Shown here piece after piece: positions 1,676 to 20,083 of a DNA stretch of 46,248 nucleotides. Position numbers and translations under genes: made by a program. The notes beneath the pieces were generated by a model. The model was not told where the DNA came from and searched no databases. It saw only the letters and a program-made list of their open reading frames with translations. Position 1 is the first letter of the stretch, and each line of letters starts with the position of its first letter. Where the stretch lies: positions 1-46,248 of the IMG/VR virus record IMGVR_UViG_3300049216_000064; one strand, written 5' to 3'. The stretch comes from a virus.

Positions 1676-1910
1676 CCAGTAAAAAATGATTACACATAAT
1701 ATACTCGAGTATATCCTCTTGTGACCTCAAGTGACCCTGGTGATGTGCAAGATGTGTATATGTGTGTTATATCATTCATAATAACTGGGTCACCCGAGGG
1801 TGACGGTGAAACTATTTTATTCTACAAGTCATTTTGTTGTGTACAACTAGATATACTTTAATTTATAGTTATTCTAGGTCAATACTCTCAAAACTGATGG
1901 AGAATAGGTT
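1676..1910 (+). promoter_or_regulatory. Non-coding regulatory gap with palindromes and a promoter
   Basis: No gene is seen in this gap. It holds a perfect 16-bp palindrome (ATATACTCGAGTATAT, 1699-1714), a perfect 7-bp inverted repeat (GTCACCC-GA-GGGTGAC, 1789-1804) that could form a hairpin, and a promoter at 1836-1869. The hairpin followed by AT-rich sequence may end the upstream operon, while the promoter starts the next one. The palindrome could be an operator; no protein is known to bind it. Confidence 0.55.
1836..1869 (+). promoter_or_regulatory. Promoter copy A with dyad-overlapped -35
   Basis: The dyad GTTGT-GT-ACAAC (1836-1847) contains a -35-like TGTACA (1840-1845). It is followed after 18 bases by a -10-like TATAGT (1864-1869) and then TCTAGG. 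The same arrangement with the same spacing occurs at 3374 and 11926. Placement is right for the gene at 1911. The dyad could be an operator for the XRE regulator at 3427. Confidence 0.65.
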
Positions 1911-2156
1911 ATGCCAGCAATGATTGAGATTAAGGTAAGTTCGGCGGTTGAGTGCTCTATTCTACTCAACAAAGATAAGGCGTTTCACACTGGTTTTAGC
2001 TCTGAGCAGGAGGCCCAGATTTGGGCTGCCAAGATGGCCAAAAAGATAGAAAAGTATCAAACCTTTCTCAGAAAAGAAACAGCTATTTTTCACGAGTTTC
2101 TTATGGCTGGCTCGTCCTGCTTTAAGACTCAGAAAGAGGAATCGCATGACTGTTGA
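1911..2156 (+). CDS. Hypothetical protein
   Basis: An unrecognised 81-residue protein, first gene after promoter copy A, with GGAG upstream of ATG 1911. The middle is a Lys-rich helix (residues ~33-60). Two cysteines lie near the C-terminus and one near residue 15. It overlaps the next gene by 11 bases, a sign of translational coupling. Confidence 0.5.
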   Translation: MPAMIEIKVSSAVECSILLNKDKAFHTGFSSEQEAQIWAAKMAKKIEKYQTFLRKETAIFHEFLMAGSSCFKTQKEESHDC

Positions 2157-2418
2157 GTTAGGTCAAAGGTATAGATCTAAGTCTCCAGAGTTTAAGTCCA
2201 TTACTCGAGTCATAAGTAAGTTGGACTCTATCTCTACGTTTTCTTCAGAAAAACTTCCATTACCGTTCGTCTACTATGAGCTTTACGTAGACGGCGTGCT
2301 TAAAGGAATCTCAGGAATGACTCAGTCTTACTTTCTAGAGTGCTCTGAGCTTATTCCCTTAACTTCAACCTCCTCAGAGAGACTATTAAGTTCAATGAAA
2401 GGCGAAGCTCGTGGTTGA
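2146..2418 (+). CDS. Hypothetical protein
   Basis: A 90-residue protein with no recognised family. It has several predicted beta strands (around YYELYVDGVL) and a Ser-rich C-terminus. It starts inside the end of the previous gene, near AAAGAGGAA, and its stop overlaps the GTG start of the next gene by 8 bases. Confidence 0.5.
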   Translation: MTVELGQRYRSKSPEFKSITRVISKLDSISTFSSEKLPLPFVYYELYVDGVLKGISGMTQSYFLECSELIPLTSTSSERLLSSMKGEARG

Positions 2419-2614
2419 TAAGAGTATTCTCAAAAAGAGAAATCAAAGAAAGCTTAAAGAAGCCATTATTTCAACAGAAATAGTTACAGTCCTTAACTTA
2501 ATGACTGCTTTAAGATTTGGTACTGTTCACGGAACTAAGAGTCATTATGACATTCTGAGAGACAGATTATTCTGTCTTAGGATGGAACTGCGGTATCCTC
2601 ATTTAAGCACATAA
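2411..2614 (+). CDS. Small basic hypothetical protein
   Basis: A 67-residue basic protein starting at GTG 2411, overlapping the previous stop. Its N-terminus is Lys/Arg-rich (KKRNQRKLK), followed by two hydrophobic helices. It could bind nucleic acid, but no motif proves this. It is in a run of overlapping small early genes. Confidence 0.45.
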   Translation: MVDKSILKKRNQRKLKEAIISTEIVTVLNLMTALRFGTVHGTKSHYDILRDRLFCLRMELRYPHLST

Positions 2615-2624
2615 GGAGAAAATC

Positions 2625-2771
2625 TTGAAGAAATCTTTGTGGTACCGAGTCGATCACTCCCTCGATCGTTTTTCTGAGCCTAAAGCTCTTCCTAGTGTTT
2701 CTGCTATTACGGTTTTGGCAATAGTCTTAATGACTCTGGTCTTTTGCTACTATTCGAGGCCTTGGGCATGA
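2625..2771 (+). CDS. Small single-span membrane protein
   Basis: A 48-residue frame starting at TTG 2625, six bases after AAGGAG (2613-2618). The N-terminal half is charged. Residues ~24-43 form one hydrophobic helix, followed by a short basic end. It ends in a TGA that overlaps the ATG of the next gene, which supports real translation. Function unknown; likely in the cytoplasmic membrane. Confidence 0.5.
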   Translation: MKKSLWYRVDHSLDRFSEPKALPSVSAITVLAIVLMTLVFCYYSRPWA

Positions 2772-2920
2772 ACTTAGAAAAGAAACGTCGCCAAATCCTG
2801 GACTCTTTAAACACAGAGCCATGGAAACCAAGTCCTTTTTTCTATAAGGTTCTAACAGCAATCCTAGTCGGTTATATTCTGACTGTTCTGGCTTGGAGCC
2901 CTATAACCTCATGGCTATAG
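2768..2920 (+). CDS. Small single-span membrane protein
   Basis: A 50-residue frame whose ATG overlaps the previous stop (ATGA). A basic N-terminus (EKKRRQ) is followed by a hydrophobic helix at residues ~25-43, so the N-terminus is expected in the cytoplasm. The pairing with the preceding single-span protein is notable: the two are translationally coupled and may act together. No family recognised. Confidence 0.5.
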   Translation: MNLEKKRRQILDSLNTEPWKPSPFFYKVLTAILVGYILTVLAWSPITSWL

Positions 2921-3141
2921 CTAAAGACTTCTACATTCAAGACCAGTACGGGGACATTTGGAATGTGGAGCCTATTCCTAACAGAAAACAAGCTAATGAG
3001 TTCAAGTACTACATTCAAGGGGATTTGAACTCATATAGAGAGTTAAGGATTATTTCTCATGCCAGAAAAGTTAATGACACTAGAACAGTTAACCACAGGA
3101 GAGAAAACCGGCTCAATCTCTTTCATGGGTCTGACTTCTAA
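2911..3141 (+). CDS. Hypothetical protein
   Basis: A 76-residue protein starting at ATG 2911 and overlapping the preceding gene by 10 bases; an in-frame TTG at 2893 would extend it by six residues. It is rich in aromatic residues and Asn, with no cysteines. The C-terminal half is basic. Its end overlaps the start of the next frame by 83 bases, which is long for this genome, so one of the two starts may be wrong. Confidence 0.45.
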   Translation: MAIAKDFYIQDQYGDIWNVEPIPNRKQANEFKYYIQGDLNSYRELRIISHARKVNDTRTVNHRRENRLNLFHGSDF

Positions 3142-3370
3142 GGTTAAGGGCTGTACTTTTTGCTCTAAGTTTACCACTGCTGTCTGCTCGGTCTATTTAA
3201 GAGATCGAAACACCATTGATACCAACCTTGTTGGGCGAGCCTGTCAAAAGCACAGAGATGAGATAAAAGAAAAAAGAACTAGGCTTAAAATAGCTAAAAG
3301 TGTCAAGCCTCTTCATGTTTTAGCCAAAAGAGCTTCCAAACAAACTCTCAATCCTTTTTTCCCTCGTTAA
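3059..3370 (+). CDS. Hypothetical basic protein with Cys pairs
   Basis: A 103-residue frame. C-x2-C (CTFC) followed by a spaced Cys and a CxKH near residue 71 resembles a small zinc-binding domain. The C-terminal third is strongly basic. ATG 3059 has a weak AAGGA upstream; ATG 3125 would reduce the overlap with the previous gene from 83 to 17 bases but lacks a ribosome-binding site. Nucleic-acid binding is plausible but unproven. Confidence 0.45.
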   Translation: MPEKLMTLEQLTTGEKTGSISFMGLTSKVKGCTFCSKFTTAVCSVYLRDRNTIDTNLVGRACQKHRDEIKEKRTRLKIAKSVKPLHVLAKRASKQTLNPFFPR

Positions 3371-3373
3371 AAA

Positions 3374-3407
3374 GTTGTGTACAACCGGTTATACGTTGTT
3401 ATACAAT
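3374..3407 (+). promoter_or_regulatory. Promoter copy B with dyad-overlapped -35
   Basis: A perfect dyad GTTGT-GT-ACAAC (3374-3385) contains -35-like TGTACA (3378-3383), then 18 bases, then -10-like TACAAT (3402-3407) and TCTAGG. It drives the XRE regulator starting at 3427. The dyad over the -35 fits repressor control and possible autoregulation. Confidence 0.65.
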
Positions 3408-3426
3408 AAATCTAGGTTAAACATAG

Positions 3427-3648
3427 ATGATCTTAGAGTCAAAAGTCGACGAAGTATTGCAGTCCAGAGGAGTCAGCGTAGATACTCTGGTTGAAAAAAC
3501 AGGTCTCACGAGAATGACTATCTTTAATGCTCGCCGGGGAGCCTCTGTTAAGATTGAAACAGCAATTAAAATTGCCGAAGCTCTAGAGGTTAAAGTAGAA
3601 GACATCTGGCAAGCGGAGGATAATAGTGCAAACGTTCTTGCCGCTTAA
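3427..3648 (+). CDS. XRE/Cro-type transcriptional regulator
   Basis: A 73-residue protein, almost entirely one helix-turn-helix domain of the HTH_3/HTH_26 type: LVEKTGLTRMTIFNARRG is the turn and recognition-helix region, followed by the family-typical end (TAIKIAEALEVKVEDIW). It should bind DNA as a dimer at short dyads, and a dyad covers the -35 of its own promoter. The start is 20 bases after the -10 element, so the leader is very short and no strong Shine-Dalgarno sequence is visible. Likely an early/middle gene repressor; its operators are inferred. Confidence 0.8.
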   Translation: MILESKVDEVLQSRGVSVDTLVEKTGLTRMTIFNARRGASVKIETAIKIAEALEVKVEDIWQAEDNSANVLAA

Positions 3649-4087
3649 GTCTTTTGTAGCCTCCATGGAGGCTTTAGACTATAGAAGGCTTGGCAAGCAA
3701 AGAATAGAGGCTTGTCAAATACTCGAAACTCTTCTTAAGCAGCCTTTTTCTCCTAAAAATATAGGAGTACCTCTCAATCCAAATTTTAAAGGCTGGAGGA
3801 ATCACCCTGCTGTAAGAATGTGGGAGGGGCACGAAGAATGGCTTAAGCTGTATACCTGCTGTTGCATAGGAGAGTGGGAGTATCGAGGCTACGCCAATAA
3901 CATTCAAAGGCCAGAGTACAACACTTCTACTCAACCTCCGCCGCCTTGGCTTGGTCTTGAGGAGTTTCATCTTTCTCACCGCTCTAATCTTCTTCGTAAA
4001 GACTTTTCACACTACTCAAAGTTTTGGCCAGATGACCCAAGAGATTTGCCTTACTTCTGGCCTACACAGAATATGGAGAATCTATGA
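3626..4087 (+). CDS. Pyrimidine dimer DNA glycosylase-like protein (Pyr_excise / MSMEG_6728 type)
   Basis: A 153-residue protein starting MQTFLP with LDYRRLGKQRIEA, WRNHPAVRMWEGHEEWL, HRSNLLRKD and a closing DLPYFWP. These are the conserved blocks of the bacterial family linked to pyrimidine-dimer glycosylases (T4 DenV-like, PF03013). Such enzymes cut the glycosyl bond at UV dimers and nick the backbone. Many members of this bacterial branch are uncharacterised, so repair is inference. The gene starts inside the end of the regulator gene and ends in an ATGA overlap with the next frame. Confidence 0.7.
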   Translation: MQTFLPLKSFVASMEALDYRRLGKQRIEACQILETLLKQPFSPKNIGVPLNPNFKGWRNHPAVRMWEGHEEWLKLYTCCCIGEWEYRGYANNIQRPEYNTSTQPPPPWLGLEEFHLSHRSNLLRKDFSHYSKFWPDDPRDLPYFWPTQNMENL

Positions 4088-4275
4088 AAGATTACAGCAT
4101 CATCTTCAGAGGTGGACAGAAGCTCAAGATAGGCTCAAGCATAAGTCTAGCTGCTTTGGCTGCAGATGGTGTAGGAGACATCATCGAGATTCGTGAAGTT
4201 CTCCCCTACTTTAAACCGCGGGTGGCGAAATTGGCAGACGCAGAGGACTTAAAATCCTCTTCCCTAAAAGAGTGA
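4084..4275 (+). CDS. Small protein running into tRNA-Leu
   Basis: ATG 4084 overlaps the stop of the previous gene (ATGA), so coupling is likely. The first ~44 residues form an independent small domain. The last ~20 residues are the translation of the tRNA-Leu gene (RVAKLADAEDLKSSS is what such a tRNA reads as). Either the original gene was cut by arrival of the tRNA cluster, or the annotated C-terminus is an accident. Function unknown. Confidence 0.4.
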   Translation: MKDYSIIFRGGQKLKIGSSISLAALAADGVGDIIEIREVLPYFKPRVAKLADAEDLKSSSLKE

Positions 4276-4301
4276 GGGTTCAAGTCCCTCTCCGCGGACC
4301 A
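4216..4301 (+). tRNA. tRNA-Leu (TAA)
   Basis: An 86-base class II tRNA. The acceptor stem CCGCGGG/TCCGCGG has one G-T pair. The anticodon stem GAGGA/TCCTC encloses the loop CTTAAAA (anticodon TAA). A variable arm, a T arm (GAGGG-TTCAAGT-CCCTC) and an encoded CCA follow. It reads TTA (and TTG), a codon common in this phage and rare in G+C-rich hosts. Confidence 0.95.
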
Positions 4302-4302
4302 A

Positions 4303-4379
4303 GCAAGTATAGCTCAGATGGATAGAGCATCTGCCTTCTAAGCAGAGGGTCATTGGTTCGAGTCCAACTACTTGCACCA
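4303..4379 (+). tRNA. tRNA-Arg (TCT)
   Basis: A 77-base tRNA. Acceptor GCAAGTA/TACTTGC pairs perfectly. The anticodon stem TCTGC/GCAGA encloses CTTCTAA, giving anticodon TCT. The T loop TTCGAGT and encoded CCA are present. It reads AGA/AGG, which are very common Arg codons in the phage genes here. Confidence 0.95.
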
Positions 4380-4382
4380 TTC

Positions 4383-4459
4383 GGGCCTATAGCTCAATCG
4401 GTTAGAGCGTCGGACTCATAATCCGCGGGTTCTCAGTTCAAGTCTGAGTAGGCCCACCA
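4383..4459 (+). tRNA. tRNA with CAT anticodon, probably tRNA-Ile2 (lysidine)
   Basis: A 77-base tRNA. Acceptor GGGCCTA/TAGGCCC, anticodon loop CTCATAA, T loop TTCAAGT, encoded CCA. The CAT anticodon fits elongator Met or Ile2. Acceptor pairs C4-G69 and C5-G68 match the identity elements used by TilS on tRNA-Ile2, unlike E. coli elongator tRNA-Met. It would then read ATA after host modification, which fits the set with Leu(TAA) and Arg(TCT). One mismatch (T-C) sits at the top of the anticodon stem. Confidence 0.9.
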
Positions 4460-4474
4460 CATTCAAGGAGAAGT

Positions 4475-4696
4475 ATGACTCTAGACACCGCAACACAGAT
4501 AGTAATCGCCATGACTTCTCCTGTAGAATTGCTTGAGGAGTGGAATAAGCCTGAAAGTAAAGCTAAGATGATTCTTGCTGCTCACCTGGTAAGTGCTCTT
4601 GAGGAGAATAAAGGAAAGGTTTCTTTCTCTGATATTTCCTTTGCGTTTATTCTAGGCGTGCAGGTTGGGCGACTGATGGAGAAGAGTGATCAGTGA
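4475..4696 (+). CDS. Hypothetical protein
   Basis: A 73-residue, mainly helical protein starting 15 bases after the last tRNA, with AAGGAG upstream. It has a hydrophobic C-terminal helix (AFILGVQVGRLM). Its TGA overlaps the GTG start of the SNF2 helicase, so the two are probably translated together. No family recognised. Confidence 0.55.
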   Translation: MTLDTATQIVIAMTSPVELLEEWNKPESKAKMILAAHLVSALEENKGKVSFSDISFAFILGVQVGRLMEKSDQ

Positions 4697-6195
4697 TAGA
4701 CCTCTCAAATCTCGACTTCTCTAGATCTAAGTTTAACCTATTTGCTCACCAAAAAGAAGGCGTCAAGTTTCTAATCAAAAATAGATTCGCAGCACTACTT
4801 GACGAAATGGGCGCCGCAAAGACTCTTCAAATCATATATACAGCTTGTCTTCTCTATGAGGACAAGCAGATTGATACTGTCTTGATTATGTGCCCGGCTC
4901 AAGTTAAACCTGTGTGGACACATCCTCAGTACTCTCAGATCATTGAGCATTCCTTTGTAAGTGGAGTAATTCATGAGTTTAGGTCCCGATCGACTGCTAT
5001 CCCCTCCAAAGATCGAGGGCTTACGTGGATTGTTACTTCCGTCGAGTTGCTCCGAAACCCAGATCATGTCAAGACCCTGCTCTCACTTCTTAAAGATAGG
5101 AATTTCTGGGCTGTCGTTGATGAGTCAAGCACCATCTCTAACCCAAGGGCGTCTCAAACAAGAGGAGTACAGAAAGTTGGTCTTAAAGCAAAGCGGCGTA
5201 CAATACTCAACGGGACTCCAATCGGAAATTCCCCTCTGAATCTATACTCTCAGTTTGAGTTTTTAGACCCTATGATTTTAGGCTTTAAGAATTACTTTGC
5301 TTTTCGTAACCGTCATGCGCTGATGGGCGGCTATATGAATAAGCAAGTGGTTGGATTTCATGATCTTGAGAGTATTCAAGAAAAGATTAAGCCCTTTGCT
5401 TTAAGACGACTTAAGGCAGACTGCTTAGACATTCTACCAAAGATGAGAGCGCCTCTTATTGAGGTTAAGCTCTCTGAGTCTACCTGGGCTAGATACAAAC
5501 AGATGAGAGAGGAGATGGTAGCATACCTCGAAAATCACGACTCAGCTTCTACGGTAACGACAGCTCCAGTCAAAGCTCTTAGGTTAGCTCAAATCTGCTC
5601 AGGCTTTTTAGGAGGAATTGAGAGTGAGGACAGCGCAGAGACTGCAACTTATGAGATTGGTTCTGAGCTTACAGATGCTTTTCTATCTCATCTCGAGACT
5701 CGACTAAACATAGACGAAAACTTTAAGCTTATAGTCTGGTGCAGGTTTAGGCCAGAAATAGCTAGACTTCAGACTTTAGTTAAAGCTAAGTTTTCTAATA
5801 TGACGGTTAAGGTTTTACAAGGAGGTATGTCAAAAGGAGATCGAAATGAAGCCACTTCTCTGTTTCACCCTGATGCCCCTGAGCTTTCTGGTCCTGCTTT
5901 ACTCATTGGCCAACCGCAGTCAGGTAGGTTTGGTCTTAACTTTACTGGCTGCAGCAATGTGGATTACCTCTCCAATGATTATTCTTTTCTTACTAGGTCT
6001 CAGAGTGAGGATAGAATTCACCGGCCAGGGCAAAGATTTCAGGCGCTTTTTCAAGATTATGTAGTTGTTGGCCCCAATCGCGAGAGAACGGTAAGTGGAA
6101 TTATTCTTAAAGCCCTTAAGACTCACGAGGAAGTAGCCACCTGGACATGTAGCAAGTGGGTAGCGGAGCTTACCCAAGAAAGTGATGACCTATAA
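4693..6195 (+). CDS. SNF2-family DNA helicase/translocase
   Basis: A 500-residue SF2 protein of the SWI2/SNF2 type. Motif I is LLDEMGAAKT (residues ~36-44, with AA where the family has LG). Motif II is DESS (143-146, in place of DEAH/DEAQ). Motif III is LNGTPIGNS. The C-terminal core has SGRFGLNFTGCSNVDYL and QSEDRIHRPGQ (motifs V and VI, arginine finger). It starts at GTG 4693, overlapping the previous stop. Phage SNF2 proteins accompany replication modules and may remodel DNA or strip proteins; the exact role is unproven. It is directly followed by the next gene with no gap. Confidence 0.88.
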   Translation: MIDLSNLDFSRSKFNLFAHQKEGVKFLIKNRFAALLDEMGAAKTLQIIYTACLLYEDKQIDTVLIMCPAQVKPVWTHPQYSQIIEHSFVSGVIHEFRSRSTAIPSKDRGLTWIVTSVELLRNPDHVKTLLSLLKDRNFWAVVDESSTISNPRASQTRGVQKVGLKAKRRTILNGTPIGNSPLNLYSQFEFLDPMILGFKNYFAFRNRHALMGGYMNKQVVGFHDLESIQEKIKPFALRRLKADCLDILPKMRAPLIEVKLSESTWARYKQMREEMVAYLENHDSASTVTTAPVKALRLAQICSGFLGGIESEDSAETATYEIGSELTDAFLSHLETRLNIDENFKLIVWCRFRPEIARLQTLVKAKFSNMTVKVLQGGMSKGDRNEATSLFHPDAPELSGPALLIGQPQSGRFGLNFTGCSNVDYLSNDYSFLTRSQSEDRIHRPGQRFQALFQDYVVVGPNRERTVSGIILKALKTHEEVATWTCSKWVAELTQESDDL

Positions 6196-6738
6196 ATGGG
6201 GAAATACAGCCATCTTAAGTCCTCGTTGACCTCGCTAACGGCGGAACCTGAGTATCAGGATAAGGTCAATGCGGAAAAAGAACGAATCGGTAGACTTCTT
6301 GTAGAGCAAGGAAAGTCTGGCTCTATTAAAGACTTTGCCCTAGTTCTACTCGAAGCTCGAATTGAAAAAGCCAGACTGGAGGCTCTGGAAAAGATTCAAA
6401 ACCTAACCATTGAGGCCACTACTCAAGTCTTAGTTGAGTTACTTGAGGACCAGACTTTAACCTCTCTAAAGTTAGAGAATGGTGTCTCTATGTCTATTAA
6501 GGATGACGTCTACTGCAAAATAGAGAATAGACATGAGTTTTACGGTTGGATAAAGAACAGTGGCTTAGAAGACTTGCTTACTGTTAACTATCAAACCATG
6601 AGTTCTCTAGTCAAGAAACGCTTGACTGGTGAAATGACTGTACCAGAAAACGAAGAGTCTACTCCTCCAGGTGTTGGAGTGTACTTTAAACAAGGAATCA
6701 TGATTAGAGGAGCGAAAAATCTTGCCACAGAAGAATGA
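6196..6738 (+). CDS. Conserved phage protein of unknown function
   Basis: A 180-residue protein whose ATG directly follows the helicase stop. The N-terminal half is helical with charged heptad-like repeats (coiled coil possible, residues ~20-75). The C-terminal part has VNYQTMSSLVKKRLTGE and FKQGIMIRGAK. Its place between the helicase and the Cys-containing protein suggests a replication accessory role. Not assigned to a family. Confidence 0.6.
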   Translation: MGKYSHLKSSLTSLTAEPEYQDKVNAEKERIGRLLVEQGKSGSIKDFALVLLEARIEKARLEALEKIQNLTIEATTQVLVELLEDQTLTSLKLENGVSMSIKDDVYCKIENRHEFYGWIKNSGLEDLLTVNYQTMSSLVKKRLTGEMTVPENEESTPPGVGVYFKQGIMIRGAKNLATEE

Positions 6739-7534
6739 AATTACAAAGCATAGCCCTGAGCTGACGCAGATCGAGTCAGTTCCTGATTTTCTCAAGAGCC
6801 ACGTCGGACAGTCAACAGGATTAGAAGACGTAGAGCAGAGTGATATTCTCATCCCTAGGCTTGGGCTTTGTCAGTCTCTGTCTCCGCAGCGTAAGAAGTC
6901 AAATCCTCTCTACATCGAAGGACTGCAGGAGGGGCAACTCTTCAACACCGTGACTCAAGAGGTCTATGGAGAAAAACTTGAGGTGATTTTACTTTTCTTT
7001 TTCAAGAATCGCATCAAGTACTTTCCCATTGACTCTGGCGGTGGAATCGACTGCATCTCTCCCAACGGCATTGACCAGGGGCGCATCTCTCCTGATGGGT
7101 GCTCTGTGTGCAGGTTTTCTCAGTTTGGTAATGGAGAAGACTTAGTACAAGGAGAGAAGCAGTCAGCCCCTGAGTGTACTCTGTATCACAACTTGATGTG
7201 CCTTACTCCTCATGACAGCAGTCCTATCGCTATGAGCTTTAAGTCCACTGGGCTTAAGGTGACTAAGCAGCTGCTTGCTCAGATTCGTATGTCTCGGCTT
7301 CCGATGTACGCCAAGAAGTATGAAATCACGGTCACCACGGTAAAGTCTGGCCAGAACGAATGGTTTGAGAAGAAGATTACTCCTACTGGCTTTGTGGATA
7401 GCGTGACTTTTGCTGAGATGGAAAAGAGTTTCGAGTCTCTGAAGAAGGCCAATATCAAGGTTGATACAACTGGTGAGGGAGACGACTCTTTCCAGCCGGA
7501 TAATGGCCCTTACCACGCCGAAACTGAACTTTAA
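6722..7534 (+). CDS. Conserved replication-module protein, ssDNA-binding candidate
   Basis: A 270-residue protein. It starts at TTG 6722, supported by AGAGGAG at 6707-6713, and overlaps the previous gene. ILIPRLGLCQSLSPQ and LQEGQLFNTVTQEVYG are characteristic of a conserved protein seen in phage replication modules. Five cysteines at residues ~119-160 (including C-x2-C) could hold zinc. The C-terminus is acidic (TTGEGDDSFQPDNG), as in ssDNA-binding proteins. This is suggestive only. A strong terminator follows. Confidence 0.55.
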   Translation: MPQKNEITKHSPELTQIESVPDFLKSHVGQSTGLEDVEQSDILIPRLGLCQSLSPQRKKSNPLYIEGLQEGQLFNTVTQEVYGEKLEVILLFFFKNRIKYFPIDSGGGIDCISPNGIDQGRISPDGCSVCRFSQFGNGEDLVQGEKQSAPECTLYHNLMCLTPHDSSPIAMSFKSTGLKVTKQLLAQIRMSRLPMYAKKYEITVTTVKSGQNEWFEKKITPTGFVDSVTFAEMEKSFESLKKANIKVDTTGEGDDSFQPDNGPYHAETEL

Positions 7535-7543
7535 TTAGACTGT

Positions 7544-7580
7544 GGACCTCACCTTAAACTAGGGTGAGGTCCAAGTTTTT
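7544..7580 (+). terminator. Rho-independent terminator
   Basis: A perfect 10-bp stem, GGACCTCACC (7544-7553) and GGTGAGGTCC (7563-7572), with a 9-base loop, then AAGTTTTT. It closes the helicase operon. The primase gene begins 23 bases after the T run, so read-through or an undetected promoter must supply it. Confidence 0.85.
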
Positions 7581-7602
7581 CACGAACTAGAGGCTTCAAG
7601 CT

Positions 7603-9093
7603 GTGCTTGTTCAGTTTAAAGAACTTTTCTCTGGCTCTAGTTTGGCTCATGGTACTTGGTCAAAAGAAACCGGTAACATGGCCACTATTCAATCTGCTGC
7701 GTCCAAAGAGGATTACCAAAAGCATCTCAGCGGAGAGCTCGGCCTTGGAATTATCCCTGTCAATGAAGAAGGAATGTGCTTCTTTGGGGCAATTGACATA
7801 GACATAGACACCATCAATCATGTAGAACTTTACGCCAAGGTAAAGTCCAGAAATCTTCCTCTCTATGTGTGCCGGTCTAAGTCTGGTGGGGCTCATCTCT
7901 ACGTTTTCTTCAAAGAGCCTCAAAATGCTACTTTTGTACAGATTCTTCTTAGAAAGTGGACTGCTCTTTTAGGCTATCCTTCTAAAACTGAGATATTTCC
8001 TAAGCAAACTAAAAGCACTAAGTCCTCTCTAGGAAATTGGATAAATCTGCCTTATTTCAATTCTGAGAATACTGTCAGATACTGCGTAAATGAGGGTGGG
8101 AGTCTTACCTTTCAAGAGTTTTTAGATAGCATTAAGTACTATACTGGAAAAGAAAACGTAGACACCTCTCTAAATGAGGGTCTTATCCAGATAGACAGCA
8201 TGCCTCCATGCTTAAAGGAGCTGACAAATGAAGGCCTTCCTCCAGGAACTAGAAACGTCGGGTTGTTCTCGTATGGTGTTTTTTACCGAAAATCCAGCCC
8301 CAACGGGTGGCAAGAAAAACTTCGTCATCATAACCAGAATTACGTATCGCCTCCTCTTGGTTCTAGGGAAGTTGAAGCCCTTATCAAGTCTCTTGGCGAT
8401 AGACAGTATCAGTATAAGTGTGATGAGGAACCACTATGCTCTCATTGTGACCGTAAGACGTGTCTCACTCTCCCATATGGAGTTAGCAGCAAACCTTGGG
8501 AAGATGGGAATAACTTTGATGAAATCGTCTACGGAAACCTAAGAAAAATAGTAACCGATCCTCCAACCTACATTCTCGAGGTTAATGGTAAAGACCTTCA
8601 CCTAAACTCTGATGAGTTTAGGGATTTTGGCAAGTTTAGAAAGAAAGTTTTTGAAGTTCACGACGCTGTCATAAGAACTATTAAGCAGGCACAATGGGAA
8701 CAAAAGCTCCGAGAGATGCTTAATGTCAAAGTCGACATTGAGGCTCCTGATGATGCTTCTGACTATGGCTCAGTCACCGCTAAGATTGATGACTACCTAT
8801 CTCTAAGTGACCGGGCTAAGGGAAGAGAAGACCTTCTACGTGGAATGCCGATTGTTGAAGAAAAGTTTATTCTCTTTCAAGTTGACCCTCTTCAAAAGTA
8901 TCTCCAATCTAAGAAGACATTTATTGAAAATAAAGATTTGTTCTCAGTTCTTCACAGGCGTAACTGTGAGTATGCTCTTCTTCGAGTTAAGGGTAAGGTA
9001 GTAAGGGCTTGGAAAATTCCAATTGAATTGGTCAATAGGCAGACAGAAAACTACACAGAAACTGAATTTGACCCTGAAGAAAGTGAGTTATAG
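7603..9093 (+). CDS. Archaeo-eukaryotic-type primase (AEP/PrimPol-like)
   Basis: A 496-residue protein. The N-terminal catalytic domain has the metal-binding hhDxD motif (AIDIDID, D65/D67), the S-x-H motif (SKSGGAHLY, H98) and a third block (NWINLPYFN). These are the three AEP primase motifs, of the type also found in TOTE-like and phage primases. A Cys cluster near residues 273-287 (CDEEPLCSHCDRKTC) resembles the zinc module of such primases. The rest is helical and may bind template or helicase. Starts at GTG 7603 without a strong ribosome-binding site. It should make RNA or DNA primers for the family A polymerase. Confidence 0.82.
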   Translation: MLVQFKELFSGSSLAHGTWSKETGNMATIQSAASKEDYQKHLSGELGLGIIPVNEEGMCFFGAIDIDIDTINHVELYAKVKSRNLPLYVCRSKSGGAHLYVFFKEPQNATFVQILLRKWTALLGYPSKTEIFPKQTKSTKSSLGNWINLPYFNSENTVRYCVNEGGSLTFQEFLDSIKYYTGKENVDTSLNEGLIQIDSMPPCLKELTNEGLPPGTRNVGLFSYGVFYRKSSPNGWQEKLRHHNQNYVSPPLGSREVEALIKSLGDRQYQYKCDEEPLCSHCDRKTCLTLPYGVSSKPWEDGNNFDEIVYGNLRKIVTDPPTYILEVNGKDLHLNSDEFRDFGKFRKKVFEVHDAVIRTIKQAQWEQKLREMLNVKVDIEAPDDASDYGSVTAKIDDYLSLSDRAKGREDLLRGMPIVEEKFILFQVDPLQKYLQSKKTFIENKDLFSVLHRRNCEYALLRVKGKVVRAWKIPIELVNRQTENYTETEFDPEESEL

Positions 9094-9131
9094 GCTTGAC
9101 GGCCGCTATTCACCCATTAAAACCAGTTAAT

Positions 9132-9147
9132 TTGAGTATACACTCAA
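9132..9147 (+). promoter_or_regulatory. Palindrome, operator candidate
   Basis: An inverted repeat TTGAGT-ATAC-ACTCAA lies in the gap between the primase and exonuclease genes, about 40 bases before the ~55-bp element at 9171. It may be an operator or part of the same control region. No binding protein can be named. Confidence 0.4.
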
Positions 9148-9170
9148 GTTACCTGAGTGATTAAGGGTAA

Positions 9171-9226
9171 ATATGCGATAATTTAATGATTGAATACATG
9201 TTCAATTTTTGCACACAATTCCTGGG
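9171..9226 (+). promoter_or_regulatory. ~55-bp intergenic element, copy 1
   Basis: ATATGC, then 29 bases, then TTTTTGCA followed by CACAATTCCTGGG. The same order and exact spacing occur on the - strand at 33985-34041 and 19768-19823. In this copy the dyad is weaker. It lies 31 bases before the exonuclease gene and after the primase, so it could be a promoter/operator for the polymerase operon. No convincing -10 is seen. Confidence 0.5.
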
Positions 9227-9256
9227 ATGACTGGGAAACTGAAAGAAAGGTAAACT

Positions 9257-9958
9257 ATGAGACTCCTGGGATTAGACTTTGAAACTACAGGGCTTGACCC
9301 TAAGAATGACGTGGTAACCGAGGTAGGAGCAGTACTGTGGGACACGGAGCGCCACTCTCCTGTTTTAATAGACAATTACTTTGTTTTTAACGGTAAGACA
9401 GTTTTATCGGATCTTATCATTCGTATTACAGGAATTCAGCAGAAAGACTTAGAGGAGTTTGGTATACCTCCTCAGGAAGGTCTTATTCGGCTTGTAGAAC
9501 TTGTTGAGAAGTGCGACGCCATAGTCGCTCACAATAAGTCTTTTGATAAGGGGTTCTACGACTACTGGTTAAACACTACTGTAAGTGATGCTCAAGAAAT
9601 TAAGTCAGTTCCATGGATTTGCTCTATGAATGATATAGACTATCCAGAAGAATGCAAGAGCAAGAAGCTTAGTTATTTAGCCTCGGATCATGGGTTTTTA
9701 AACCCCTTTGCTCACCGCGCTGTATTTGACGTCCTCACGATGCTTCGAGTCGTAGATAACTATGATATCAGCGTAATACTCGAGAGTGCGGGACAACCTG
9801 ATCTAGTTATTGAGGCTTTAGTTTCTTTTCAGAATAAAGATTTAGCACGAGCTGAAGGATTTAGGTGGGATGCGGTTAAGAGAAAGTGGCTAAAGACTAT
9901 GAAAAAAGCTAAGTGGGAGGCCAGTAGATTTAGCTTTGATACGGTGGAGGTTAAGTGA
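9257..9958 (+). CDS. DnaQ-like 3'-5' exonuclease
   Basis: A 233-residue DEDD-family exonuclease. Exo I is LDFETTG (D7, E9), Exo II is AHNKSFD (D97), Exo III is HRAVFDV (H153, D158), i.e. the DEDDh type. The C-terminal ~50 residues (AEGFRWDAVKRKWLK) form a basic extra segment. It may proofread for the polymerase or trim DNA or RNA ends. AGAAAGG lies before ATG 9257. The stop overlaps the next GTG. Confidence 0.88.
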   Translation: MRLLGLDFETTGLDPKNDVVTEVGAVLWDTERHSPVLIDNYFVFNGKTVLSDLIIRITGIQQKDLEEFGIPPQEGLIRLVELVEKCDAIVAHNKSFDKGFYDYWLNTTVSDAQEIKSVPWICSMNDIDYPEECKSKKLSYLASDHGFLNPFAHRAVFDVLTMLRVVDNYDISVILESAGQPDLVIEALVSFQNKDLARAEGFRWDAVKRKWLKTMKKAKWEASRFSFDTVEVK

Positions 9959-10401
9959 TTACAGACCCTTTCCATGTTCCTTACGGCAGACTTAACTTTG
10001 ATCCTGAGATGTGGGCTGAATTCCAGAAGATGAGGAGAATTAAAGAGCTGTCAGAGGAAGTAAAAGCTATTGTCGACCAAGGACTATTAGCCGTCCTCAA
10101 GAATGATATACTCGAAGAGCTAAGCTTTGAGTCTACTTTCAATACTGAGCTTTCTCCTGCTCAAATAACTTGGTTCTCAAATCCTCACTGGTCTGGTTTA
10201 GCTATAGCCATATTTTCTCACTGCTCTAAAGAGGTATTTTCTGATGTCACAAAATTCCAGAAAAGTCCTTATGATAACCTACCTTATTTAGAGAAGAACA
10301 TTATTCCTGCTGATTCTAAGCAGCCATACTCTATCAATAGGCTTAAAGGTGAGACGGTTAAACTAATAGTAGAAGAAAAACCACAACTAAGTTTATTTTA
10401 G
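9955..10401 (+). CDS. Hypothetical protein ending in a beta-clamp-binding motif
   Basis: A 148-residue protein of unknown family, starting at GTG 9955 overlapping the exonuclease stop (GTGA). The final five residues are QLSLF, the consensus bacterial sliding-clamp-binding peptide (QL[S/D]LF), placed at an exposed C-terminus. The N-terminal half is helical. It lies between an exonuclease and a helicase, so recruitment of the host beta clamp is a reasonable inference. Confidence 0.6.
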   Translation: MITDPFHVPYGRLNFDPEMWAEFQKMRRIKELSEEVKAIVDQGLLAVLKNDILEELSFESTFNTELSPAQITWFSNPHWSGLAIAIFSHCSKEVFSDVTKFQKSPYDNLPYLEKNIIPADSKQPYSINRLKGETVKLIVEEKPQLSLF

Positions 10402-10410
10402 GAGGAAAAC

Positions 10411-11892
10411 ATGGTTAAACACAAAATCTACGGTCCTCCAGGCACTGGAAAAACAACAAGACTCATAGAACTCCTGGCCCAAGAGATAGAAAACGGAATT
10501 CCTACTCAGAGAATAGCTTTTCTAACTTTCACTAAGGCCGCTAGAATTGAGGCTCTATCCAGGACTGAAAAGAAAGAATCTGATTTTCCATACCTTAGAA
10601 CTATACACTCTATATGTTACCGTCAGCTAGGTATAAGCAGAGATCAGATAGTGGCTACTCATGAATTACAGACCTTTGGAAGGTTTATGAGTATCCCCCT
10701 TAGAGGGGGAATCGCGGATCCGTGGGTTGAGGAATTTGAGCGTAACTGGGTTGCTCCTACTCGAGAAGACCTGCTTCTTCAGATTAATCACAGTGGAAGA
10801 CACCGCGGACTTCTTTTGAAAGAATCTTTAAAAGAAGCTAACTGCGATATAGACTATAAGTACGCTGTTTGGTTTACTAAGGCCTACAGAGCCTGGAAAG
10901 AAACCAGGGGTTTGGTGGATTATACCGATCTCCTGATGAAGTATCTGGACTTTGGAAAACCCCTAGATGTTGATGTTCTCTTCGTCGATGAGGCTCAGGA
11001 CTTATCTCCACTGCAATGGGAAGTAATAGATAAGTTAAGTGCTAAAGCAAAGAAGATGTATATATGCGGAGACGATGACCAGGCGATATTTAAGTGGGCA
11101 GGTGCGGATAGCTCTTCCTTTCAAAACTACGCTACAGATACTGAAGAGATTCTTCATCAATCCTATAGAATCTCTAAGGCTGTTCATGAAGTGGCGATGA
11201 GGTTAGCCAGCAAGATTAAAGTAAGAGTTCCTAAAGACTATCTGCCTACCTCTTCCGAGGGAGAAGTGATTACAGTAGATAATCTACAAAGCGCAGATTT
11301 TAGCAAGAAAACTTTTGTTCTTTTTCGCAATAACTACAGGGGAGATGTATTGTCTAGTGCTCTTAACGGTATGGGGGTACCTTATATAGGAAAAGGAAGT
11401 CCTCTATCTGATTATAGAGTAAGAGAAGCTTTGTACTGCTGGTATAAGTTGATTAAGAATGGGGAGATTACCCGAGAAGAGTGTAGAAAACTTCTTAGAT
11501 ACGCAAATAAGGACTACACATTCTACGACTACAGAAGGCTTCCTAATAAGGCTATATTTACGCTCTCTGAAGTCTTTGCTAATCCACCTAAATGGATGTG
11601 GTGGAAAGAGTATCTTTCTAAGCTTCCTGATAAGCACATCATTGAGCACTTTATTAAAGTCTCAGGGTTTCTCAGAACAGCTAGACCAAAGGTAGAGCTA
11701 ATGTCTATGCACCAGTCCAAGGGCAGGGAAGCTCACACAGTAATCATAGACAAAGAGATAAGCAAGGCAGTGTACGACTCTACTCTTCACGATTCTGACG
11801 ATGAGTATAGAGTCTTTTACGTCGCTGTGACAAGAGCTAAAGAGAGAATCATCTTTGTAATGGCTGAGGGAAACTATGAATTTGGTATTTAA
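10411..11892 (+). CDS. UvrD/Rep-like SF1 DNA helicase
   Basis: A 493-residue helicase. Walker A is GPPGTGKT (8-15), motif Ia LTFTKAAR, motif II VDEAQD (192-197), motif III GDDDQAIFKWAGA, motif IV QSYRIS, motif V MSMHQSKGREAHTV and motif VI VAVTRAKERI. It is shorter than UvrD (~720 residues), like phage SF1 helicases. It unwinds DNA 3'-5' by family precedent. TTAGGAGG lies before ATG 10411. With the SNF2 protein it is the only helicase seen here. Confidence 0.9.
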   Translation: MVKHKIYGPPGTGKTTRLIELLAQEIENGIPTQRIAFLTFTKAARIEALSRTEKKESDFPYLRTIHSICYRQLGISRDQIVATHELQTFGRFMSIPLRGGIADPWVEEFERNWVAPTREDLLLQINHSGRHRGLLLKESLKEANCDIDYKYAVWFTKAYRAWKETRGLVDYTDLLMKYLDFGKPLDVDVLFVDEAQDLSPLQWEVIDKLSAKAKKMYICGDDDQAIFKWAGADSSSFQNYATDTEEILHQSYRISKAVHEVAMRLASKIKVRVPKDYLPTSSEGEVITVDNLQSADFSKKTFVLFRNNYRGDVLSSALNGMGVPYIGKGSPLSDYRVREALYCWYKLIKNGEITREECRKLLRYANKDYTFYDYRRLPNKAIFTLSEVFANPPKWMWWKEYLSKLPDKHIIEHFIKVSGFLRTARPKVELMSMHQSKGREAHTVIIDKEISKAVYDSTLHDSDDEYRVFYVAVTRAKERIIFVMAEGNYEFGI

Positions 11893-11925
11893 GTCAGAAA
11901 AATAAATAGTAAATCTAGTCATTAT

Positions 11926-11959
11926 TTTGTGTACAACTAGATGAATCACGGTATATTAT
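11926..11959 (+). promoter_or_regulatory. Promoter copy C with dyad-overlapped -35
   Basis: TTTGT-GT-ACAAC (one mismatch from the perfect dyad) covers -35-like TGTACA (11930-11935). After exactly 18 bases comes -10-like TATTAT (11954-11959), then TATAGA. It sits 33 bases before the GTG of the next gene and likely drives the wHTH pair at 11992 and 12630. Confidence 0.65.
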
Positions 11960-11991: not shown

Positions 11992-12615
11992 GTGAAAATC
12001 ATAGAGTTTACAACCTACAACGAAAGCTCTCCAGTTACCGGGTTTGGTATATGGTTAGTTCTCGATGAGGGGTTAAGAGCTCATCTTTTTCATCCCATTC
12101 ATCTGTCTGAGTTGATAGTTACTGAGTATGATTACAAGTCAGGAATAGGCAATTCTCTCTGGCCGACTAATTCTACGGGTAACCCTTTCAGTGCCTCCAG
12201 ATTCATGGAGTCTTTCAAAAAGAGAGTAGCTTTCTTTATAGAGAACAGAAGGCCTTTTCCTGTTCAAGTTGTGGCTAAGGTCATAGCTGAACTCGAAGAA
12301 ATCCCTATAGAAGAAGTTATGCTCTTTATCAGATCTCTTACTGCTGGAGATGCTGAGTTTAACAATAGTACCACAGACAAAGCCTCAAGAACTTACCAGG
12401 TAAGAAAAGATGTAGAAATCGACGAAAGTCTAATCGAACCAGGAAGAGCTAGAGTCCTGTTCGAGACGCTTAAATGTCACAATTCTCCTGCTTCCATCTA
12501 CGAAATAACATCACTAGTAGAGGGAAAACTTAAGACTAAATCTGACTTAAATAGAGTGGTGACCTATTTTGTCAACAAACTGACCTCTCGAGGTGTGCTC
12601 GAGATTGTCGTCTGA
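11992..12615 (+). CDS. wHTH-like protein, unknown role
   Basis: A 207-residue protein starting at GTG 11992 with a TGGAG upstream. The N-terminal ~100 residues are unrecognised. The C-terminal ~57 residues (from EPGRARVLFETLK to RGVLEIV) have a winged-helix pattern and resemble the C-terminal part of the next gene product. DNA binding is likely. It follows promoter copy C, so it may be a regulator or nucleoid-associated protein. Confidence 0.5.
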   Translation: MKIIEFTTYNESSPVTGFGIWLVLDEGLRAHLFHPIHLSELIVTEYDYKSGIGNSLWPTNSTGNPFSASRFMESFKKRVAFFIENRRPFPVQVVAKVIAELEEIPIEEVMLFIRSLTAGDAEFNNSTTDKASRTYQVRKDVEIDESLIEPGRARVLFETLKCHNSPASIYEITSLVEGKLKTKSDLNRVVTYFVNKLTSRGVLEIVV

Positions 12616-12629
12616 TAAGGAGATTTACA

Positions 12630-13013
12630 ATGAAGGAAGCTACTGTCGCTGAGACTGCTGTCGCGGAGGCCCCGAAGACCAAGAAGGGTACCAAGGCTGA
12701 GACCACTACTGTTGAGGGCGCTGAGCCCAAGACTCGCAAGGCTGCTCAGCCTAAGAACGGTCTTTATCGTCTGATTCATGGTGTCAGCTCTGCTGATTTC
12801 CGCGGTCAGCGTCAGATCGTTGTTAAGGCTCTGGAGTCTCTGGGTGCCGGCCATCACCCTGTCGAGAAAATTGTCGAGAAGAGCGATGGTCTTGTCTCCA
12901 AGACTCCTGTCGAGGCTTCGGTCAAGTACCACCTTCGTGGTCTGCTCGAAGACGGCAAGGTCGAAGAGATCGTGCCGGCTCCTGCTCCGGTTGCTGAAAA
13001 ACCCGCAGCTTAA
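12630..13013 (+). CDS. Abundant basic protein with winged-helix domain (DNA-binding candidate)
   Basis: A 127-residue protein. The first ~40 residues are a low-complexity Ala/Lys/Thr/Glu tail like histone H1-type tails. Residues ~45-115 form a winged-helix-like domain related to that of the preceding gene. Codons are strikingly different from its neighbours (GCT, CTG, CGT, GTC, AAG), as expected for a very highly expressed gene. A good AAGGAG precedes the start and a strong hairpin follows. A histone-like phage DNA-coating protein is a reasonable guess. Confidence 0.55.
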   Translation: MKEATVAETAVAEAPKTKKGTKAETTTVEGAEPKTRKAAQPKNGLYRLIHGVSSADFRGQRQIVVKALESLGAGHHPVEKIVEKSDGLVSKTPVEASVKYHLRGLLEDGKVEEIVPAPAPVAEKPAA

Positions 13014-13151: not shown

Positions 13152-13469
13152 ATGCCAGAATTGGACGACCTTCTCGACACCAGAATCTATCCTTTTCCTC
13201 AAACAATAAATCTTATCAGTAGACGCTCAGCTATTCTAGAGTGTCCAGTTTGTCTCGCTCTCGACAACTTCTACAGCATGGAAGAAAGGTCTGTTTTTGA
13301 GACAATAGCCTGCAAGGGAAATCTTCCTCCTGAGTGCGAACATCAAGACTTTTTAGGCCGAAAGCATACTCATCTTGTACAGTGTGCGGGAGTCACTAAG
13401 CGGCACTTTCATGTTAAGTGCCACTGTTGTGAAAGTGTATTTTTACTGCATGTTCCGGAGCGTAACTAA
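13152..13469 (+). CDS. Cys/His-rich zinc-binding candidate
   Basis: A 105-residue protein with C-x2-C (CPVC), further Cys and His in the middle (ACKGNLPPECEH) and a C-terminal CHCC. The pattern suggests one or two structural zinc sites. The first ~30 residues are not distinctive. AAGGAAA precedes the ATG, and its stop overlaps the kinase gene start (TAATG). Function unknown; it opens the nucleotide operon. Confidence 0.5.
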   Translation: MPELDDLLDTRIYPFPQTINLISRRSAILECPVCLALDNFYSMEERSVFETIACKGNLPPECEHQDFLGRKHTHLVQCAGVTKRHFHVKCHCCESVFLLHVPERN

Positions 13470-14398
13470 TGGGACGCGTAGTAATTCTTGAAGGACCTGA
13501 TGGTGGAGGTAAGACTACTCTAGCTAAAAAGCTTGTCGACGCTGGATTTAAGTACAGGCATGAAGGTCCTCCTCCCGCTCAAGTAGATATCGTCGCCTAC
13601 TATCTAAAGATTCTCTATGACTCCCTTAGGTCTACAGACCACATTGTTCACGATAGGCTTTGGCTAGGGGAGCGCGTCTACGGTCCTGTAAGGCGCGGCT
13701 CAGATCGATTAGGGGATTTAGGCCAAAAGCTCTTTGAGCGTCTTCACCATTCTAAGCCTATTCAGCAGTACATCTGCTTGCCGAATATGACGTTGGCTAG
13801 GCAAAATTACTCAATTAAGATTAAAGAGAGCGATGACTATCTGAAGTCATTTGAGAGCTGGGAACAAGTCTTTAAGATTTATGAAGCCTGGCAAAAGTCT
13901 AACTCAATTCTTGGGCCTGTTTACGACTACTCTATAGTCTCTGCCAAGAGTGTTGTTGAGTCGGCCCTCTCCTATAAAAACACTCTACGTAACCTCCCAG
14001 AGGGAACTATAGGCTCTCCAGATGCGAAGTATCTCTTTGTAGGAGATGTCGTTAATCACGCTTCCATAGATGTGCCTTTCTTTGCGGTTACCGGCTCTAG
14101 TGGATATTTTAATAAGGCTCTTGAGCTATTAAACCTCAGAGAGGAAGACATCTCCATCACAAATGCTAAGGCGCCAAATGGTAAAAGTCATTCTCTTGGA
14201 AGTATCTTAGCTAAACTACCTAATCTCGTGTATATCATACTGATGGGTGGTGTAGCTAAGGAGTGGTTTGCTGGTCAATCTGACCTGAGAGATACCTATA
14301 AAATAGTCAATGTCCCTCATCCATCCTATCTGAAGAGATTTAGGGGCCACAACCCAGCAGTTATGGCAGAGATTCTACATAAAGGAATATATGGCTAA
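13469..14398 (+). CDS. Deoxynucleotide (thymidylate-type) kinase fused to a UDG-like domain
   Basis: A 309-residue fusion. Residues 1-~165 are a P-loop kinase: ILEGPDGGGKTTLA (P-loop 9-16) and DRLWLGERVYG (62-72), like thymidylate kinases and phage dNMP kinases. Residues ~185-309 resemble the uracil-DNA-glycosylase fold: YLFVGDVVN at the catalytic-loop position, PFFAVTGSSGYFNKAL, ISITNA and VPHPSYLKRF (HPS 284-286). The kinase would phosphorylate a dNMP, perhaps 5-hydroxymethyl-dCMP as T4 gp1 does. Whether the second domain is an active glycosylase is unclear. Overlaps the next gene by 8 bases. Confidence 0.72.
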   Translation: MGRVVILEGPDGGGKTTLAKKLVDAGFKYRHEGPPPAQVDIVAYYLKILYDSLRSTDHIVHDRLWLGERVYGPVRRGSDRLGDLGQKLFERLHHSKPIQQYICLPNMTLARQNYSIKIKESDDYLKSFESWEQVFKIYEAWQKSNSILGPVYDYSIVSAKSVVESALSYKNTLRNLPEGTIGSPDAKYLFVGDVVNHASIDVPFFAVTGSSGYFNKALELLNLREEDISITNAKAPNGKSHSLGSILAKLPNLVYIILMGGVAKEWFAGQSDLRDTYKIVNVPHPSYLKRFRGHNPAVMAEILHKGIYG

Positions 14399-19673: not shown

Positions 19674-19705
19674 GCCCTCACCCTACATTTAAGTAGGGTG
19701 AGGGC
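19674..19705. terminator. Bidirectional terminator at the convergent junction
   Basis: A perfect 13-bp stem, GCCCTCACCCTAC (19674-19686) and GTAGGGTGAGGGC (19693-19705), with a 6-base loop. It lies 22 bases after the last + strand stop and 123 bases past the last - strand stop. Neither side has a long T run, but position and stem strength fit transcription stopping from both arms. Confidence 0.8.
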
Positions 19706-19828: not shown

Positions 19829-20083
19829 CTAAGATGTTGGAGGAGTAAGAGGAGTGGGGTCAGGGGCAAGTGTCGCTATTGAAGCGTCACTTATAACAAC
19901 TGACTGAGCTGCGCTGATTCCAGATAGAGCGGAAGTAACCATATCACCAAACAGCTTAAGCAGAGTTCCTGCCTCAACAGCAGGAACATCAACTGCGGGG
20001 TCTAGAGCCTCCAGAACACTTAGAATCTGAGCACCTAAAGATTCAACATCAGTCACAATTCCTTGAACTTCAGACACAGTCAT
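19829..20083 (-). CDS. Small hypothetical protein
   Basis: An 84-residue acidic helical protein ending in a Pro/Thr-rich tail (PDPTPLTPPTS). GGAG lies six bases before the ATG. Last gene of the late operon, next to the lysis cassette. No membrane segment, no recognised family. Confidence 0.55.
   Translation of the reverse strand: MTVSEVQGIVTDVESLGAQILSVLEALDPAVDVPAVEAGTLLKLFGDMVTSALSGISAAQSVVISDASIATLAPDPTPLTPPTS

Follow-up and report, generated by a model that had tools for sequence, protein, structure and literature searches.

What does a near-palindrome do that recurs around the -35 hexamers of three phage promoters, and does it place the operons behind them under one regulator? The question is raised by IMG/VR record IMGVR_UViG_3300049216_000064, whose 46,248 bases were analyzed as a whole and are referred to here as the window. 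An earlier note on this DNA had described three copies of a promoter built on a GTTGT-GT-ACAAC dyad and had suggested a shared switch over three operons. Orthologous conservation and extra copies in larger relatives lend strong support to promoter function and to a common element over the three operons, and the early genes of the virus are probably regulated jointly, as a single set. For the dyad itself, we see roughly even chances that it is an operator, with host RNA polymerase firing the promoters and a phage repressor, most likely a 73-amino-acid XRE protein, shutting them off from the dyad.

Direct look-up and exact searching recovered all three copies, which lie on the plus strand and open three consecutive rightward gene blocks. 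At site 1, the dyad (positions 1836 to 1847) includes the -35 hexamer TGTACA (1840 to 1845) and is followed by the -10 hexamer TATAGT (1864 to 1869); at site 2, the dyad (3374 to 3385) includes the same -35 (3378 to 3383) and is followed by TACAAT (3402 to 3407). Site 3 (11927 to 11937, with the -35 at 11930 to 11935 and the -10 TATTAT at 11954 to 11959) departs from the described dyad: it reads TTTGT-GT-ACAAC, so that the symmetry is 4+4, TTGT-GT-ACAA(C), and not 5+5 as at sites 1 and 2. The spacers are all 18 nt as read here, with TATATT at 16 nt as an alternative reading at site 3. The spacer of site 2 also contains a third half-site, GTTGT (3395 to 3399), which together with the right arm makes ACAAC-N9-GTTGT.

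The string TTGTGTACAAC occurred three times in the window (1837, 3375, and 11927), always on the plus strand and never on the minus strand, and a -10-like hexamer was present downstream of every copy. It was absent from the reversed window, averaged 0.015 copies (maximum, 1) in dinucleotide shuffles, and the dyad combined with TANNNT at a matching distance appeared in 0 of 200 shuffles. Since 24 different 11-mers are present at least three times in the window, repetition of this kind is weak evidence, and the case for function is carried by the comparative sequence evidence instead. A fourth near-copy at 1661 (GTTGTGTACATT) was rejected, because these bases encode the C terminus of the gene 1322 product (...FGVVYI) and no -10 hexamer follows at 17 to 18 nt. 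An RNA-level element such as a hairpin or riboswitch was likewise discarded: the dyad lies upstream of the predicted transcription start, and the Rfam matches consisted of three tRNAs only.

Relatives were found in IMG/VR by protein similarity, using alignments of the primase, the SNF2 helicase, and the XRE protein; alignments were needed, as the XRE and UvrD proteins, each used as a single sequence to scan IMG/VR, returned nothing. The primase, aligned with those of distant phages, led to G001 (contig L011; primase 71% identical), the SNF2 helicase to G002 to G007 (66 to 71%), and the XRE protein to G019 to G021. All of these have most window genes in conserved order. The clades used below are defined by the form of the XRE protein and of the promoters and not by a tree: clade A comprises the window, G001, G002, G005, G007, and G019 (the XRE gene lies outside the G001 and G002 records), clade B comprises G003, G004, and G006, and clade C comprises G020 and G021. 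Scanning IMG/VR for the XRE protein yielded 8 loci only, all in this lineage. A DNA scan for the dyad with an 18-nt spacer and TATAAT gave repeat matches in G007 (3), G019 (2), and one other contig, and an exact 21-nt pattern gave no match. Genome contigs scanned with the primase alignment contained no prophage relative. In the distant relatives G008 to G018 (36 to 40% SNF2 identity), the exact element was not found, and protein searches, run without a positive control alongside, detected no homologues of the XRE protein or of the first protein encoded behind site 3 (gene 11992). Among the window genes tested, none had >60% protein identity to a member of the phage collection, and a nucleotide search of that collection with the window matched tRNA genes only. 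One relative, the 79-kb record G005 (L185-L189), has structural genes at both ends and in mixed order, as if the contig were terminally redundant or mis-joined.

The closest relative, G019, carries TTGTGTACAAC at all three orthologous places, namely, at 8773 after the counterpart of gene 1322 (site 1), at 11275 ahead of its XRE gene (11325), and at 20069 ahead of its 11992 gene (20152). The copy at the XRE gene was reached via the protein alone, and the same contig was returned by the independent DNA scan. Eight of 11 records (the window, G001, G002, G005, G007, G019, G020, and G021) retain the 11-mer of site 3 as TTGTNTACAAC, and the dyad there was the best conserved of 101 11-nt segments, with 98% agreement versus 53 to 58% in the flanks and spacer. 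It persisted even where the element directly upstream, TCATTATT, has changed to GAAAACAG (G020 and G021) or GAAAAAAG (G007); clade B has a different promoter at this place, TTGTATCAACTTGTGCAAAGTTGG and then TATAAT, or a variant thereof. This upstream element had been overlooked in the earlier note: TCATTATT (11919 to 11926) is identical in G001, G002, G005, and G019, and its equivalent at site 1, TCATTTT (1829 to 1835), recurs in its counterparts from G019 and G007 (TCATTTTG) as well as in a relocated copy in G005. The promoter of the XRE gene itself bears the dyad in 4 of 4 clade A genomes covering the gene, as GTTGTGTACAAC in the window and G019, GTTGTTTACAAC in G005, and GTTGTATACAAC, a perfect 12-bp palindrome, in G007. 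Such conservation shows that the element is under selection.

The comparison also refined several details of the promoter as first described. The three window copies do agree with an exact spacer of 18 bases, but this exactness is a small-sample effect, as relatives use 17 or 18 nt (17 in the G001 counterpart of site 3). Spacer sequences are not wholly free, as XRE promoters have a common stretch directly ahead of the -10. The start region, TCTAGG, is evident at sites 1 and 2, is weaker at site 3 (CTATAGATTGAT), and becomes a loose TWTAGRTTRAT across relatives.

Scans of the window and seven relatives placed these sites in a larger family of sigma70-type promoters, TNTACA-N17/18-TATAAT. Fifteen of 21 matches to TTGTNTACAAC had a -10 agreeing in at least 5 of 6 positions at 17 or 18 nt, compared with at most 2 of the 21 at any other distance between 8 and 29 nt from TNTACA; within the 16 to 19 nt typical of sigma70-type hexamers, enrichment was thus confined to 17 and 18. 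A two-block profile built from 14 sites found 39 sites scoring >16 versus 0 in shuffles, a count that includes the training sites as well as orthologues and near-duplicates, so that its independent part is smaller; G019 was not in the training set. In non-coding DNA, the core pattern occurred 50 times versus once in reversed sequence. Two upstream classes were distinguished, TCATTATTTT (sites 1 and 3) and A-rich AAAAARG (site 2). Some relatives have about ten copies of the element, and the promoters stand ahead of genes for small DNA-binding proteins and of the replication operons. Nothing relevant to the motif strings turned up in the literature library searched. On the minus strand of G020, four adjacent promoters (2153 to 3950) of the form TCATT..TTT[AG]TNTACAG have no AAC arm; two of the four precede winged-helix genes like the second gene behind site 3 (12630), and the group looks like a branch of the family that is unregulated or under different control.

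In clade A, the -35 sits inside GTTGT-NT-ACAAC. The core promoter is separable from this dyad, as family members in G019 and G020 that lack the AAC right arm retain TCATT or TCACT, the T-rich stretch, TNTACA, and TATAAT, which suggests that the core can function alone and that the dyad supplements it. We favor an operator as the function of the added symmetry. According to this proposal, the three sites would be host-sigma70-type promoters of an apparently virulent, contractile-tailed lineage, each opening one successive early or replication operon, with the -35 embedded in a near-palindrome serving as operator in the window's clade. The operons would be transcribed by host RNA polymerase soon after infection, until a small, phage-encoded dimeric repressor has built up, occupies the dyad, and blocks sigma region 4 at the -35. 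Early operons and the repressor's own gene would then be shut off together, in a Cro-like or controller-protein-like negative feedback. Repression is proposed as the sign of regulation because a dimer on a -35-centered dyad should keep sigma region 4 off the DNA. A search for a phage-encoded sigma region 4 (PF04545) gave no match while controls were positive; PF00940 (single-subunit RNA polymerase) was not matched either, but its controls were equally silent. For tyrosine integrase (PF00589, the only recombinase class covered by the search), there was no match in 8 records, which may be incomplete, versus 14 of 14 positive control genomes. An early shut-off or autoregulatory circuit is thus likelier than a lysogeny switch.

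The leading candidate for the repressor is the XRE protein encoded directly behind site 2 (3427 to 3648, plus strand; 73 amino acids). Its ATG lies 19 nt past the -10, which predicts a near-leaderless mRNA, and in clade A the gene starts 6 to 19 nt past the -10. Two Pfam helix-turn-helix domains scored above their cut-offs (HTH_26, 1.3e-7, 32.2 bits against 22; HTH_3, 24.9 bits against 23), placing it in the XRE/Cro-C1 family. The AlphaFold model has five helices. Restriction-modification controller (C) proteins were the nearest solved structures: C.BclI (2b5a) was the best match both in a sequence-profile search (E = 8e-4) and in Foldseek, where C.AhdI (1y7y) ranked third within the top four (E-values of 1.6e-3 to 2.4e-3), with the qualification that identities were only 25 to 27% and the Foldseek E-values above 0.001. 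No restriction or modification gene was found among the annotated neighbors, which include a pyrimidine dimer glycosylase (Pyr_excise), the SNF2 helicase, a primase, and the UvrD helicase. Moreover, the C-box GACT-N3-AGTC is absent from the promoter, and its single match in the window, at 34240 among structural genes, is at chance level. The protein is therefore not a C protein by membership. Nevertheless, its C-protein-like fold, the matching 7-bp spacing of half-sites, and the dyad at its own near-leaderless gene make it the most likely binder of the dyad, as a working hypothesis.

Several observations weigh against this assignment. The main difficulty is clade C, where a perfect dyad stays at the 11992-type promoter and is lost at the XRE gene. 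At the XRE gene, the promoter of clades B and C retains the TNTACA -35 and has lost the left arm (TATTTTACAAC, GATATTTACAAAG, and GATATATACAAG). The right arm is wholly absent from some family members (G019, 1165 and 1402; G020, 2153, 3061, 3342, and 3950), and what they retain implies that the left arm belongs in part to the core promoter, with TTTTG in the first upstream class being partly core; the 4+4 symmetry at site 3 is for this reason weaker operator evidence than the 5+5 symmetry at sites 1 and 2. Finally, the regulon contains two further predicted DNA-binding proteins, those of genes 11992 and 12630.

The lost arms in other clades are accompanied by rearranged half-sites. Most clade B promoters lack the left arm, and GTTGT occurs 9 nt past ACAAC, just upstream of the -10, the same ACAAC-N9-GTTGT that is present in the window's XRE promoter and in several G007 promoters. 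In the XRE promoter of G021 (clade C), ATACAAG-N8-CTTGTAT has the same base altered in both arms. The recognition helix of the XRE protein reads RMT[IL][FY]NAR in clade A, [KR]MTLWNAK in clade B, and RMTLYNAS in clade C. This apparent co-variation of operator and protein is suggestive, with few independent cases. A bolder and distinctly more doubtful reading is that the virulent lineage uses a stripped-down, controller-like XRE autoregulator acting genome-wide on one GTTGT half-site grammar. The second half-site would have moved between clades, lying upstream of the -35 in A, within the spacer in B, and with an altered outer base in C, alongside the change from NAR to NAK and NAS in the recognition helix.

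The strongest competitor of an operator, although clearly less probable, is that TTGTNTACAAC is simply an extended -35, the strong early promoter of this lineage and of its host's sigma factor, with incidental symmetry and no dedicated repressor. Conservation reaches further for the right half, TNTACAAC, than for the left (in clade B and at several G007 sites), members without the full dyad exist, and TCATT with the upstream TTTTG is core to one promoter class whether or not a right arm follows. A sigma70 -35, however, needs neither TTG before nor AC after the hexamer, and an extended hexamer does not readily account for perfect palindromes such as that of G007 or for half-sites that recur in other arrangements (ACAAC-N9-GTTGT and ACAAG-N8-CTTGT), which better fit a DNA-binding dimer. 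Most tellingly, both arms at site 3 are still present in genomes with another upstream class (G007, G020, and G021), which we regard as the strongest sequence argument for the dyad as a unit.

Slightly less probable again is that the dyad is an operator read not by the XRE protein but by the product of gene 11992 or by the winged-helix family of gene 12630. These two genes directly follow the best-conserved copies: 11992 to 12615 (plus strand; 207 amino acids; no Pfam family) is the first gene behind site 3, and 12630 to 13013 (plus strand; 127 amino acids) is the second. The 11992 promoter retains the dyad in every clade A and clade C genome, even where the XRE promoter has lost it. Paralogues of the 12630 protein in relatives match the winged-helix domain HTH_20 (1.7e-5), and in G005, G007, and G019 they are encoded directly behind dyad promoters; in G020, by contrast, such paralogues sit behind promoters without a right arm. 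The 11992 protein has a C-terminal helix-helix-helix-strand domain (AlphaFold pLDDT of 83 to 89 over residues ∼150 to 207) that looks winged-helix-like in the model, but the model is confident in this part only, much of the remainder being unreliable, and a whole-protein Foldseek search gave no clear relative.

In the manner of MotA or lambda cII, a phage or host activator on the dyad might recruit RNA polymerase to a poor -35, but we consider this improbable. TGTACA agrees with TTGACA at 4 of 6 positions only, and sequence around the hexamer is conserved; yet a dimer on a dyad centered on the -35 would compete with sigma region 4, no help is needed at the many copies that pair TTTACA with a consensus TATAAT, and the operons hold the first replication genes, which should fire early. 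A functionless chance repeat, to which only the abundance of repeated 11-mers in the window could lend credit, is already refuted by conservation at orthologous intergenic places in divergent genomes and by the excess of profile and core-pattern matches over controls.

The three gene blocks, all on the plus strand, differ in content. The block behind site 1 (1911 to 3370) is an operon of small genes of unknown function that begins with an 81-amino-acid gene (1911 to 2156). That behind site 2 (3427 to 11892) encodes the XRE protein, the glycosylase, tRNAs, the SNF2 helicase, the primase, an exonuclease, and the UvrD helicase, and that behind site 3 (from 11992 onwards) encodes the 11992 and 12630 proteins, nucleotide-metabolism genes, and DNA polymerase A. 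Sheath, baseplate, portal, and capsid genes on the minus strand identify a contractile-tailed phage. A terminase was not recognised among the window proteins searched, and since the relatives are also larger, at up to 60 to 79 kb, the record is probably incomplete.

Several further features were noted along the window. The gap upstream of site 1 contains a perfect 14-bp palindrome (1700 to 1713; TATACTCGAGTATA), of which the window has no second exact copy, and a hairpin, GTCACCC-GA-GGGTGAC (1789 to 1804), possibly a terminator setting off the upstream operon. Tandem tRNA genes for Leu-TAA, Arg-TCT, and Met-CAT occupy 4216 to 4459; the tRNA-Arg is ∼93% identical over 56 bases to that of Acinetobacter phages, a weak hint at the host. 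Strong terminator-like hairpins were found at 7543 to 7573 (14 pairs), after gene 6722 to 7534, and at 19674 to 19705 (13 pairs), where the hairpin separates the convergent early and structural arms. In the gap between the primase and exonuclease genes, a non-coding element of ∼100 nt (9128 to 9235), kept in G005 and G019 with the blocks AGTATACACT, AGTAACCTGAG, GGTAAATATGC, and CCTGGGATGAC, may be a replication origin. A gene of 309 amino acids (13469 to 14398) combines a kinase-like ATP-binding N terminus with a uracil-DNA-glycosylase-like C terminus; the matching open reading frame in G001 has only 171 amino acids.

Taken together, these data provide a first regulatory map, with operon starts, co-regulated genes, and three candidate regulators, for a phage lineage without a close cultivated relative. 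Should the XRE protein be the binder, controller-style autoregulation would extend to early shut-off in apparently virulent phages, and the clades would form a series for studying repressor-operator co-evolution in which a regulator and its whole regulon are re-targeted together. Should the sigma factor alone read the motif, it would still be a clean early-promoter signature by which such phages can be found and annotated.

This is not a new kind of system. C proteins recognize near-palindromes of the form GACT-tat-AGTC, their repressing operator extends over the -35 of their own promoter, and their transcripts are leaderless (PMC4824078); the mechanism and autoregulation of controller proteins have been described (PMC4041747). 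C.BclI, C.AhdI, and C.Esp1396I resemble the present case in being small XRE proteins with the nearest solved fold and a near-leaderless mRNA of their own, and their C-box systems in having a near-palindromic operator with half-site centers 7 bp apart and overlap with the -35. Autoregulation is known there and proposed here; unlike in C-protein systems, no restriction-modification gene was found adjoining, the half-site is GTTGT and not GACT, and copies are spread across several operons. Cro and C1 of lambda-like and 434-like phages likewise combine a small XRE fold with an operator over an early promoter and share the feedback shut-off proposed here. They act, however, on a tripartite operator between divergent promoters, whereas in the present lineage no integrase was found and isolated operators lie on successive co-directional operons. 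P1 C1 operators are dispersed, with one repressor acting at many copies. The stoperators of mycobacteriophage cluster A (PMC9283540) similarly pair one repressor, as proposed here, with many genomic copies. In contrast to both, nearly every copy in our lineage coincides with a -35 and a -10, and the phages look virulent and not temperate. The MotA boxes of T4 are asymmetric, are centered near -30, and replace the -35. The middle promoters of T4 also combine a sigma70 -10 with an element in the -35 region common to the whole family, but here the -35 hexamer is present inside a symmetric element.

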